A stretch of DNA of 64,000 nucleotides from Ignavibacteria bacterium (lineage in GTDB: Bacteria; Bacteroidota; Ignavibacteria; Tepidaquicellales; Tepidaquicellaceae), in NCBI GenBank assembly GCA_019187405.1, contig JABAQZ010000001.1:62001-126000 (forward strand), read 5' to 3'. Under the pieces are notes generated by a model. The model was not told the DNA's origin. It ran no database searches and saw only the letters and a program-made list of their open reading frames with translations. Shown piece after piece: positions 35 to 43,746 of this stretch; position 1 is the first letter of the stretch; every line of letters begins with the position of its first letter. The position numbers were made by a program, and so were the translations under genes.

Positions 35-280
35 TTAAAGTTTCTTAATCCGATACGGGCAAGCGATAAAAAACAAGATAACAGTTATTAACAAAATACT
101 AACAGAAATTTTTCCGTTTTTTTTCTTTAATAATATTACAGATAATGAATTTTATAGTCAAGTTTTAATTTAAATGTTAATGTTAAATTTTAAAAAAAAT
201 TTTTGAGATTAATAAACAGAAAAATTAATAAATACTTTTTAGAAAAAAGATTTTTTACTTTTAAAAAAAATTTTTCCTTT

Positions 281-12273: not shown

Positions 12274-14898
12274 TTATTTTAATAAGATCATAGTTTTTGT
12301 TTTCTGAAAATTTTTCGTTTCGAGTTTATAGATATAAACTCCGCTGGAAAGATTATTGGCGTTCCAGCGAATGTTATATTTCCCGGGTTGCTGCAACTTG
12401 CCGACCAGTTCGGAAATCATTCTTCCTGTTATGTCAAATATTTTCAAGGAAACAATTTCAGCAGAAGGAAGTTCATAAGAAATTGTTGTAACCGGATTAA
12501 AGGGATTTGGAAAATTTTGTAAAAGAGAAAATCCATTCACATTTTCGGAATTTGAATTTACTAACACCGGATTTTCGAGAAGTTTTCTTTCATAAACTCC
12601 GTTACCATGTGTAGTTGCGCGCAGTTTTCTATTTGGATAAACAATCGTTAGGTCAAACACCAGCGCATAAGGCATACCTGACATGTATTCGTTCCATACA
12701 GCGCCTGAGTTTGTAGTTACATAAACACCGAGATCATTTCCAGTATAAATATTTTGCGGGTAAGCAGGATCTGTAACGATGCAATGTGCGGGGACATCGG
12801 GCAGATTTCCTGAAATATTCTGCCAGTTAATCCCGGCGTTATCAGATTTAAAAACATGACCGCTGCCGAAACCGCCGAAAGTAACAAAAACTTCTCGTGA
12901 ATTATTCTGATTTACCGAAATGTCGGTTGCATATCTGTTTGGCAAAATACTGCTGTCGGTTATATTTGTCCAATTGAGACCTGCATTAACGGATCTGAAT
13001 ATTCTTCCGTTGATTGCACCAGCATAAACTGTATCAACCCCGGTTAAAGATGAAGCCAAAGAGAGAATTTTCGAACCTCCGATTTCTGAGGTTCCATAAG
13101 GACCTTGCCAGCTTGTACCGCCGTTTGTAGATTTATAAATTGACTTTCCACCAACGTAAAGAACGTTTGGATTAGAATTACAGCATATAAAAGGAGTGAC
13201 GAAACAATAATTTGAAGAATTACCTGAACCTGGAGGAGAATTTCCTAACCACGAAATTCCTCCGTCTGTGGATTTGTTTATAGAACCATAAGTATATTCT
13301 GTGTAACAGATATTGTCATTTTGTGAATTTACGGCGCATGACATACCGTCACCATAGAAAGTTTTAAACCATGCAGTGGTTCCCTGATATAGCGCAGATC
13401 GGTTATCCTGCAAACCTCCGATGGCAAAGAGTGAATCTTGAAAAGAATTTGCAAATGTTGCATAGAATTGTGAAGTAACAAAGCCGCCGTTACAGGAATA
13501 AAATGTTTCGCAGAAATCATTTGATCTGTATAATCCCCCATCTGCAGTAATATATATTTTATCAGGATCTTTCGGATTTGATTCAAAGTAATGAATATCA
13601 GCATGAACAAAATCTGAAGGACCTTCGGGTTCACCCGGAGGCGTAGCGCCTTCATTCCATGCGCTCCAGTCGGATTTTGTAGAGAATGTAGTTCCGCCGT
13701 TAATTGACTTTTCAACATTGATGGTACCTACAAGAATGGAATTCGGATCATTGGATTTTATAAAATGTCCGTTATTATACCAGCCTTGAATACCGATGGG
13801 TATTGAAGTATTAACATTCGTCCAGTTGTTTCCCCCGTTTGTACTTTTATAATAACCTACATAAGAAAAATCATTTGAAATGCTAGCATAAATTAATTGA
13901 GGATTACCTTTATATATTTTTAATGTTGTTTTACCTGTCCATGTTGACGGAAGACCGCCGGATAGTTTAATCCAGTTGAGTCCGGAGTTAGTGGTTTTGT
14001 AAATACCGACAGTGGACTGCGGAACATTGTTTGTAAGATTGCCAATAGATGCATAAAGAACGTTTGTATCGACCGGATTGATTTCCATATCCATCACCAT
14101 TTTATAATCTAGCAGCTGGAACCAGTTGTTACCTGAATTTTGAGATTTAAAAATACCCTCACTTGTAGCGGCATAAAGAGTTGTGGAATTTTTTGGATTA
14201 ATAATTACTTTCCACACTCCCCTTTTATTGTTATAGCTCCAGTCAAGAGATTTTGTCCAGTTGTTACCGCCGTTTGTAGACTTTAAAATTCCTATGCCGT
14301 ACATACCTCGTGTTACTCTTACATCGAGTCCGTTTTGAGAATATTGATAGCCGTAGTTTTCTCCGGTACCAATATACATAACATTTGGATTAGCAGAATC
14401 AATCGCAATATGGCTTACCGCAAGAGAAGGATAACCGGTATTAATCATATCCCAGGCATCAGCACCAATTCCTCCTGTTACTGATTTCCACAATCCCCCT
14501 GAAGCAGATCCTAAAAAGATAGTTCCGGTATCAACGGGATGAACAGCGACACAGAGGCTTCTTCCGCCGATATTGTTTGGACCTATTGATGACCATTCTT
14601 TAAGTTCGTCAAAATTGTTTAGTGTTTGAAGATTTGATTTTGAATATTCAAAAGCTTTAAAGAATTTATCTTCAGGAATATCAATGTCGGGATATGCTCT
14701 TACTTGATTCATCATCTGCATTGATTCCATTGCACCTGATGAGGTTTTTACATTTTCTGTTTTATTATATTCTGATTTATTTTTCTTTGACTTTTTATCT
14801 TTTTCATTGGATTTAGTTTTCTCAATTACCATCGAAAGAAGTAGAGTTAGAGAAATGAATATGATAATCGAAAAGAGAAGAATTAATTTTGATTTCAT
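12274..14898 (-). CDS. Secreted sortilin/BNR-repeat protein with T9SS sorting domain
   Basis: An 874-residue exported protein. Residues 1-24 form a signal anchor or signal peptide. From about residue 105 to 785 there are roughly ten copies of an Asp-box (BNR) motif of the type STNGGNNW, SQNSGNNW, STDGGISW and SDNAGINW. These mark beta-propeller blades of the sortilin/VPS10 or sialidase-like fold. The last 85 residues contain NFPNPFNPVTTISYELP, LKIFDITGRMI and SSGVYIYKL, the type A C-terminal sorting domain recognised by the type IX secretion system. The protein is therefore probably exported across the outer membrane and attached or released. No catalytic residues can be assigned. ATG at 14896-14898 precedes the hydrophobic stretch directly. 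Confidence 0.92.
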   Translation of the reverse strand: MKSKLILLFSIIIFISLTLLLSMVIEKTKSNEKDKKSKKNKSEYNKTENVKTSSGAMESMQMMNQVRAYPDIDIPEDKFFKAFEYSKSNLQTLNNFDELKEWSSIGPNNIGGRSLCVAVHPVDTGTIFLGSASGGLWKSVTGGIGADAWDMINTGYPSLAVSHIAIDSANPNVMYIGTGENYGYQYSQNGLDVRVTRGMYGIGILKSTNGGNNWTKSLDWSYNNKRGVWKVIINPKNSTTLYAATSEGIFKSQNSGNNWFQLLDYKMVMDMEINPVDTNVLYASIGNLTNNVPQSTVGIYKTTNSGLNWIKLSGGLPSTWTGKTTLKIYKGNPQLIYASISNDFSYVGYYKSTNGGNNWTNVNTSIPIGIQGWYNNGHFIKSNDPNSILVGTINVEKSINGGTTFSTKSDWSAWNEGATPPGEPEGPSDFVHADIHYFESNPKDPDKIYITADGGLYRSNDFCETFYSCNGGFVTSQFYATFANSFQDSLFAIGGLQDNRSALYQGTTAWFKTFYGDGMSCAVNSQNDNICYTEYTYGSINKSTDGGISWLGNSPPGSGNSSNYCFVTPFICCNSNPNVLYVGGKSIYKSTNGGTSWQGPYGTSEIGGSKILSLASSLTGVDTVYAGAINGRIFRSVNAGLNWTNITDSSILPNRYATDISVNQNNSREVFVTFGGFGSGHVFKSDNAGINWQNISGNLPDVPAHCIVTDPAYPQNIYTGNDLGVYVTTNSGAVWNEYMSGMPYALVFDLTIVYPNRKLRATTHGNGVYERKLLENPVLVNSNSENVNGFSLLQNFPNPFNPVTTISYELPSAEIVSLKIFDITGRMISELVGKLQQPGKYNIRWNANNLSSGVYIYKLETKNFQKTKTMILLK

Positions 14899-15168: not shown

Positions 15169-15825
15169 ATGGATATGAATGGAATATTTTTTCACATTTA
15201 TAACCGCGGCAACAATCACGAAAAAATTTTCATTGAAGAGAAAAACTACATATATTTTATAAATAAGTTTGCAAAATATCTTCATGATTTTATAGATATT
15301 TATTGCTATAGTCTGTTACCCAGGCATTTTCATTTCGTAGTTAAAATTAAAGATATTGAGACAAATTTTTATGAATTCTTTGATATTCCGACGGATTCTT
15401 GTAAACAGCTTTCACCAATTGAAAAAGCATTCAGGGATTTTTTTATCTCATATTCGAAATCAATTAATAAAATATATGGTCGAAATGGATCTCTTTTTCA
15501 GTCAAAGTACAAGCGAAATTTGATAGAAACCGAAGCTGAATTGAAAAGATTAATTGCATATATACACACAAATCCCGTAAGAATAGGTTTGTGCAATAAG
15601 ATTGAAGACTGGAATTATAGTTCATACAACTCAATATTACAGTATAAAAATGTAAGTGATCTGAGCAAAGAAATTATAAAGTTGTTTGGTGATGAAGATT
15701 CGTTTGTGAAATTCCATGAAAATTATAGTGAGCCTTGGCAAGAGACTGAATTATTATTTAGAGACTACTATACGGGAAAGATTCCAAGATTGTCAGAATA
15801 TATAAGGAAGGTTTATAATGTATAA
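15169..15825 (+). CDS. REP-associated tyrosine transposase (RAYT, IS200-like Y1 domain)
   Basis: A 218-residue Y1-family HUH transposase-like protein. The start GIFFHIYNRGNNHEKIF is diagnostic of the IS200-like/RAYT domain. The HUH metal motif is HFH at residues 53-55 (LLPRHFHFVVKI). The likely nucleophilic tyrosine is Y95 in FISYSKSINKIYGRNGSLFQ. It is followed by a typical AYIHTNPVRIGL-like helix and WNYSSYNSIL. RAYTs are usually single-copy domesticated proteins that act on REP palindromes rather than selfish insertion sequences. I see no terminal inverted repeats or target duplications, and a 12-copy 16-bp array lies 305 bp downstream. The start ATG at 15169 could also be the second ATG, two codons later. 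Confidence 0.9.
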   Translation: MDMNGIFFHIYNRGNNHEKIFIEEKNYIYFINKFAKYLHDFIDIYCYSLLPRHFHFVVKIKDIETNFYEFFDIPTDSCKQLSPIEKAFRDFFISYSKSINKIYGRNGSLFQSKYKRNLIETEAELKRLIAYIHTNPVRIGLCNKIEDWNYSSYNSILQYKNVSDLSKEIIKLFGDEDSFVKFHENYSEPWQETELLFRDYYTGKIPRLSEYIRKVYNV

Positions 15826-16130
15826 GCAAATCTTTTAGAATTATAAGTATGGGGAATATAATATGAAAACCTATAAGGGAAAGAAGTTGGTGTTATAAAA
15901 TAGTTAAAATTCAGAACAAAGGTATGAAGGGAATTAAACTATTCAATTTTCGGATCTTAGAAATATATTTTATCTGAATAAAGAGGTAAAAATATTTATA
16001 CATTATTAATAGAACAGAGTTTTAATAATTGTCAATATAGTTTGATTAGTCAGTGCATAGATTGACTAAAGGAATATAGTCAATAAATCTTTGATGTTAC
16101 CGGCATCTATTTCAATAACTTCCGAGGGCT
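15826..16130. other. Intergenic, no gene seen
   Basis: AT-rich stretch between the RAYT gene and the tandem array. All frames are broken by stops and no tRNA-like or strong hairpin sequence was seen. Confidence 0.6.
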
Positions 16131-16322
16131 AAGACTTCAGTTGTTTAAGACTTCAGTTGTTTAAGACTTCAGTTGTTTAAGACTTCAGTTGTTTAAGACT
16201 TCAGTTGTTTAAGACTTCAGTTGTCTAAGACTTCAGTTGTCTAAGACTTCAGTTGTTTAAAACTCCAGTTATTTATTACTTCAGTTGTTTATTACTTCAG
16301 TTGTTTATTAATTCAGAAGTCT
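16131..16322. repeat. Tandem array, 12 x 16 bp (AAGACTTCAGTTGTTT)
   Basis: Twelve contiguous 16-bp units. Units 1-5 and 8 are identical (AAGACTTCAGTTGTTT). Units 6 and 7 end TTGTCT. Units 9-12 diverge progressively (AAAACTCCAGTTATTT, ATTACTTCAGTTGTTT twice, ATTAATTCAGAAGTCT). The array is followed by a C7T8 tract. The unit has a short dyad (AGAC with GTCT or GTTT across TTCAGTT). There are no spacers, so it is not a CRISPR. A related 12-unit array lies at 43305-43496. Confidence 0.97.
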
Positions 16323-43276: not shown

Positions 43277-43292
43277 ACCTGCATCCGCAGGT
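43277..43292. repeat. Short hairpin next to tandem array
   Basis: ACCTGC (43277-43282) and GCAGGT (43287-43292) form a 6-bp stem with loop ATCC, 12 bp before the second tandem array and about 80 bp upstream of aceE. No T-run follows on the plus strand. Role unknown. Confidence 0.5.
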
Positions 43293-43304
43293 TTCATACC
43301 AACC

Positions 43305-43500
43305 GACTTCTGTAGTCTTAGACTTCTGTAGTCTTAGACTTCTGTAATCTTAGACTTCTGTAATCTTAGACTTCTGTAGACTTAGACTTCTGTAGTCTTA
43401 GACTTCTGTAGTCTTAGACTTCTGTAGTCTTAGACTTCTGTAGTCTTAGACTTCTGTAGTCTTAGACTTCTGTAGTCTTAGACTTCTGTAGTCTTAGACT
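43305..43500. repeat. Tandem array, 12 x 16 bp (GACTTCTGTAGTCTTA)
   Basis: Twelve contiguous units at 43305-43496 plus the first four bases of a thirteenth. Nine units are identical. Units 3 and 4 carry TAATCT and unit 5 TAGACT. Each period contains AGACT-TCTGT-AGTCT, a 5-bp inverted repeat, and consecutive units form AGTCT-T-AGACT, so every half-site can pair on either side. It matches 13 of 16 positions of the array at 16131-16322. Stops in at least one reading frame and the 16-bp period argue against coding. It sits between the divergent aceE and livK genes. Confidence 0.97.
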
Positions 43501-43746
43501 TGGATTTTATATATTTGTCAAAAAACAGATTACTTTAAGGCTTTTTATATATATTATAAGATAAGTGGGTTTATAGAAACACCGAATTAACACTGAATAC
43601 AAAAGATTTTTAAAATCCTTAAAGTTACAATCTTGCTAAATTAAAATTTAAATATTTGTTGCAGTTTTTAATTCAGTTTTCTATTTCTTTTACGCTGATT
43701 TTAAATTATTTTAACTGCGATTTTTAGAAAATTTGAACTTTATCTA

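Follow-up and report, generated by a model that had tools for sequence, protein, structure and literature searches.

The question raised by this locus is whether a transposase gene and the short tandem repeats beside it are parts of one system or neighbours by accident. The window, meaning the whole 64,000-nt stretch that was analysed (C4:62001-126000 of the 3.78-Mb draft genome G000), contains a gene for a RAYT-like (REP-associated tyrosine transposase-like) protein that ends 305 bp before a tandem array of a 16-bp unit (array 1, Table 1). This arrangement had been reported in a first-pass annotation and was confirmed here.

Table 1. Positions of the features discussed, in window coordinates
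Feature	Position	Strand	Description
Por_Secre_tail protein	12274-14898		suggests a host in Bacteroidota, taken in the wide sense
RAYT-like HuH-Y1 transposase	15169..15825	+	218 aa, intact ORF
RAYT-like protein motifs	HFH aa 53-55; Tyr131 in YIHTNP (131-136); SS 151-152		
Array 1	16130..16321	+	12 units of TAAGACTTCAGTTGTT, last unit ending TTCAGAAGTC
TGAAACCTGCGGAT motif beside array 2	43283..43296	-	same motif as TGAAACCTACGNAT
Array 2	43305..43501	+	12 complete GACTTCTGTAGTCTTA units in head-to-tail order; the genes on either side are divergent

By alignment, the predicted protein carries the motifs RHFH, LFQ and YIHTNP, with 78 aa between HuH and Tyr; it combines the HuH motif with a catalytic tyrosine in Y---NP, as RAYT/TnpAREP proteins do. 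H53, H55 and Y131 were invariant across seven aligned relatives. The protein matched the NCBIfam model REP_Tyr_transpos (NF047646) with E = 2.3e-15, at 56.8 bits against a curated cut-off of 80. A Pfam Y1_Tnp search with it gave no match; its relative L075 scored 22.9 bits against a threshold of 23. The sole match among solved structures in the PDB was E. coli TnpAREP (4er8), with E = 0.0097 for the single sequence and 4.2e-6 for a seven-sequence profile. The evidence for family membership is weak from the single sequence, but consistent, and suggests a RAYT. Two G000 paralogs of the gene, L039 and L040, have no HuH motif.

We compared the protein with subclass 2.6 (Bertels group 5) of the Bacteroidetes RAYTs, which the relevant section of PMC6006769 describes as flanked by atypical structures that lack GT[AG]G and recur in the genome. 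The two are alike in HuH and Y---NP, in the long HuH-to-Tyr spacing (median 82 aa reported for the subclass), in the SS after the core, and in flanking palindromes that lack GT[AG]G and have copies elsewhere in the genome. They differ in that RHFH/NHFH, FQ and YIHTNP are seen here, whereas the subclass has NH[LIV]H, WQ and YIH[QN]NP. Because the spacing and the SS are shared but the HuH, W and Y motifs are different, we place the window protein near, rather than in, subclass 2.6. The comparison is one of motif descriptions, and head-to-tail 16-bp arrays form no part of the description of the subclass in that section of PMC6006769.

The arrays themselves were then delimited by TRF, which reported array 1 at 16130-16307 (period 16, 11.1 copies, 94% matches) and array 2, 27 kb from array 1, at 43305-43501 (12.3 copies). 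A whole-genome pattern scan with mismatches located a third 16-bp array in G000, of 19 units (C1:145247-145547), which has a 32-bp higher-order alternation and has lost GTAG in alternate units (TATA). The 16-bp step of the head-to-tail arrays corresponds to one 13-mer plus a 3-bp spacer, and all three arrays have in common the core of the palindrome that accompanies the RAYT clade described below. Array 1 had been called palindromic, which was not borne out, as three of its units, folded as ssDNA on both strands, did no better than shuffles (z = +1.9 and +0.4). Units of array 2 folded better than shuffles (z = -3.2). No RAYT adjoins array 2 or the C1 array. The exact two-unit pattern gave two matches in a genome contig collection (Chloroflexi and Anaerolineae records), judged to be chance or unrelated, and none in viral contigs; with up to three mismatches it was found only in G000 in a scan of 59 relatives. 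All that these scans show is that G000 alone has the 16-bp form in its exact sequence.

The link between the RAYT and the 16-mers had originally been argued from GTAG, which was said to stand, followed by TCTTAGA, in each unit of array 2. Of the 12 full units, 10 contain GTAG and 9 contain GTAGTCTTA; neither occurs in array 1. Palindromes of two sister RAYTs, L072 and L074, contain GTAG, and those of L073 and L075 carry GAAG in its place. Where GTAG is present, it is internal to the palindrome, whereas a REP of the GTAG type carries GTAG or GTGG where its hairpin begins on the 5′ side. Such REPs usually exceed 100 copies per genome, according to the passage on copy number in PMC2817692; in G000 there are about 10 loci. 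Not being conserved, lying inside the palindrome and being absent from array 1, GTAG was rejected as a recognition tag. A classical GTAG-tagged REP/RAYT system with GTAG as guide tetranucleotide, as first proposed, would account for the array 2 units and for the palindromes of L072 and L074, but with GAAG at L073 and L075 and TATA in alternate C1 units we consider it very improbable. REPs without GT[AG]G are in any case reported for subclass 2.6 in the section cited above (PMC6006769).

It had further been suggested that the elements are tandem rather than dispersed. We reject this description, as they are both. The whole-genome scan with mismatches revealed short sites on C2, at C4:6838, on C5 (three copies within a 260-bp tandem), on C6 (two copies 44 bp apart) and on C7, with a remnant on C23. 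Eight of these short copies, at five loci, are inverted dimers, for example GACTACAGAAGTC-TAA-GACTTCTGTAGTC, which folds as a 13-bp stem. As ssDNA, dispersed dimers folded strongly (z = -6.5 for this example, and -7.5). Exact matches to the palindrome pattern numbered 20 in G000 and 87 in G014, and the copies read in G029, G031, G036, G039 and G097 were likewise dispersed, mostly as inverted dimers with spacers of about 5 to about 60 bp.

All sites examined in G000 were intergenic; the dimers thus have the form of REPINs, that is, inverted REP dimers that make one hairpin and are dispersed between genes. They resemble the REPINs of Pseudomonas (PMC3116915) and GTAG REP dimers and clusters (PMC3733652) in that two inverted short palindromes form a single intergenic hairpin; tandemly reiterated REP clusters are already known (PMC3733652). 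In contrast to both, the elements described here have no GTAG tag, occupy about 10 loci and, in arrays, keep a fixed 16-bp step of palindrome plus 3-bp spacer. They also differ from E. coli REP, which needs GTAG and a bulged stem according to the account of its recognition in PMC8266576, whereas the dimers here have perfect or nearly perfect stems and no 5′ tag. In G000 one and the same element is found at comparable loci both as a dimer and as an array: the left flanks of the C1 array and the C2 dimer are homologous (151 of 205 positions) and a right-hand motif is common to the two. Based on this homology and motif, the C1 array appears to be a dimer that was enlarged in place.

RAYT relatives were gathered from 391 genomes of the class (190 genera) and from 59 near genomes, G000 being the sole representative of its genus. 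We set the limit of the RAYT clade with the hit list already in view, where scores drop from 162 to 135 bits. The four closest relatives (L072, L073, L074 and L075) belong to other genera and have about 44-50% identity to the window protein (tblastn 49, 48, 44 and 44%). Around them, AGACTTYTGWAGTYTTA occurred with up to two mismatches in 21, 4, 4 and 5 copies, respectively, against 0.0-0.05 in shuffles; around RAYTs below about 41% identity, the same search gave 0 or 1 copies. At L074 and L075 inverted dimers lie no more than about 30 bp from either end of the gene, L073 has palindrome copies on both sides, and L072 is followed directly downstream by a 1.1-kb array of the same palindrome family.

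Bracketing of the gene by its own REP, as in a REPtron, was therefore seen at L073, L074 and L075; the window gene has only array 1 downstream and no upstream palindrome, and its flank-to-flank alignment score of 19 equals background. When upstream and downstream flanks were aligned at 37 RAYT loci, 27 scored above the 95th percentile of cross-locus controls, where 5% were expected, and the flank palindromes differed between RAYTs. This result indicates that bracketing by RAYT-specific palindromes is common in the class and that the window gene is an exception.

We then scanned the 391 genomes for AGACTTNTGNAGTNTNA. At least five copies were present only in G000, G014, G031, G039, G097, G038, G036 and G029; the pattern read backwards, used as control, gave 0-2 per genome. 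The genera with at least five copies (g1, g15, g17 and g29) are the same four, of 190, that hold the RAYT clade. In a tree, the window RAYT and L072-L075 fell outside a clade with 98/96 support that held 21 of the other sequences. RAYT identity was correlated with palindrome similarity over the 26 loci to which a palindrome could be assigned (Mantel r = 0.49, 0 of 5000 permutations), the palindromes having been taken mainly from flank alignments and in a few cases by eye, with some subjectivity. By sequence comparison, then, palindrome and RAYT clade have diverged in step in four genera, with no GTAG tag. The proposed link stands as an association: the 16-mers are members of the palindrome family found with this clade.

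Arrays common in genomes that lack this RAYT had been named as evidence against the link, and here the outcome was mixed. At the level of genera the association stood, as the family is essentially confined to those with the clade. At the level of genomes it did so less well, as G029, G036, G038 and G097, within g17 and g29, keep palindromes with no close RAYT beside them; in G097, which was checked for a clade RAYT, the RAYT loci have no AGACTT copies. Palindromes without a close RAYT in some genomes of g17 and g29 are expected if REPs outlive their transposase.

The intergenic position of the examined sites and the stable hairpins of the dimers would also suit sites that the host keeps for regulation, as transcription terminators or for protein binding, with the RAYT linkage secondary, and REPs elsewhere have such roles (literature as summarised in part of PMC6006769). 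However, the copies that we read have no T-run directly after the hairpin, the family is confined to the genera of the RAYT clade, and RAYT genes are bracketed by it. We therefore regard a regulatory origin as quite unlikely.

Tandem arrays were over-represented beside Y1/RAYT genes. In G000, 10 Y1/RAYT loci (33.7 kb) held 9 arrays, compared with 8 in 400 kb of controls (0.67 expected); the locus list mixed RAYT-like and IS200-like genes and included the doubtful L004 and L006. In relatives, 34 RAYT loci (116 kb) held 6, compared with 2 in 400 kb of controls (0.58 expected). Control stretches were sampled at fixed coordinates. In most of the G000 arrays beside such genes every unit contains a palindrome, and different genes have different units.

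This enrichment bears on two further explanations. In one, the arrays are ordinary minisatellites grown by slippage, array 1 lies near the RAYT by chance and only the dispersed dimers are RAYT-related. Such a view would fit the 305-bp distance, the one-sided position and the unfolded units of array 1, the two arrays with no RAYT nearby and the existence of other RAYT-less arrays, including one of 126 copies of a 22-bp unit. We nevertheless think it unlikely, as the core of the RAYT-clade palindrome is common to all three 16-bp arrays, arrays are enriched beside Y1/RAYT genes in G000 and relatives alike, and the sister L072 has a same-family array directly downstream.

In the other, which is a stronger form of our preferred reading and compatible with it, the RAYT itself makes the arrays: it would cut one identical hairpin after another and join the strands by way of circular or strand-transfer intermediates, so adding units head to tail. 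RAYTs of this class would then drive a satellite-like amplification of their own palindromes via ssDNA cuts at neighbouring hairpins, and their genes would be nuclei of arrays with RAYT-specific units (16, 29, 44 bp and others in G000). The enrichment, a RAYT in G000 (L005) with arrays of a palindromic 44-bp unit on both sides (12 and 11 copies), and a published model that derives complex REP arrays from circular REP intermediates (PMC3733652) speak for this possibility. Slippage or unequal exchange would give the same pattern, however, and the 32-bp alternation in C1 looks like unequal exchange; the proposal is tentative, and we think it rather unlikely.

Our preferred reading, to which we assign a probability of roughly two in three, is that gene and 16-mers belong together in a single REPtron-like system of a GTAG-less, Bacteroidota type, whose REPINs are prone to tandem expansion. 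A RAYT with its palindrome is a system of known kind, and array 1 is, judged from sequence, very probably related to the neighbouring RAYT rather than there by accident. Several observations count against this reading: the window RAYT lacks bracketing palindromes, the units of array 1 fail to fold, no RAYT lies beside array 2 or the C1 array, the NCBIfam match is below cut-off, Pfam Y1_Tnp gives no match, and in some genomes of g17 and g29 palindromes occur without a close RAYT.

Under the REPtron-like reading, the protein would be an HuH-Y1 single-strand endonuclease and strand-transferase that, as expected from its family, recognises AGACTTYTGWAGTC folded as ssDNA and, by analogy with TnpAREP (PMC8266576, PMC6006769), cuts next to the folded palindrome. 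By the same analogy, the inverted dimer (palindrome-TWA-palindrome, 13-bp stem, REPIN-like), which is scattered in intergenic DNA, is presumably the mobile form. At three sites in G000 head-to-tail arrays with a step of 16 bp would have arisen from the dimer. Slippage during replication or unequal exchange is the likeliest route, and nicking by the RAYT may have helped; unequal exchange fits the 32-bp alternation in the C1 array. Array 1 would be a member of the family that has diverged, with little palindromic character left in its units. The dimer/array pair and the GTAG-less clade offer defined substrates for the study of GTAG-independent recognition and of a possible role of RAYTs in tandem growth.

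Most palindrome copies in G000 sit in a larger context marked by TGAAACCTACGNAT. This motif flanks most copies of the family there (C1, C2, C4:6730, C5, C7 and beside array 2), and in a search of 59 relatives several copies of TTGAAACCTACGNATG/TGAAACCTACGNAT were found only in G000, with control level in 58 relatives.

Other Y1/RAYT loci in G000 have arrays of their own. The second RAYT (195 aa; L005, G000:C7:149679-152909) lies between its two arrays, at 790-1351 and 1999-2509, with a palindromic unit that contains CACAGACTGATAGTCTGTG. A third RAYT (L007, G000:C6:96870-100157) adjoins 29-bp arrays with GCAACATAAATGTTGC (2129-2868), a unit that also clusters over at least 2 kb on C15 (L123, 17979-20000). 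At L004 (G000:C22:5167-8403), palindromic arrays lie on both sides of a Y1 transposase domain (1277-1446, 1501-1737 and 2081-2236), and domain and arrays are inside one long minus-strand open frame of 1552 aa, resembling an in-frame insertion into a larger gene. At L001 (G000:C1:68536-71874), an IS200-like gene with an in-frame TAA stands between arrays carrying CAGTTGCCTAAAGGCAACTG and CAGTTCACTTTAGTGAACTG.

The 126-copy array, of TCTCACGCAGATTACGCAGAAG, is at 16614-19375 of L116 (G000:C8); it is not palindromic and no RAYT was identified nearby. Lastly, the AAACCGTTTAAACGGTTT palindrome forms repeated units at two control stretches (L111, 10696-11248, and L117, 19323-19693) and three copies of it lie next to an IS200-like gene on C6, in the downstream flank of L003.
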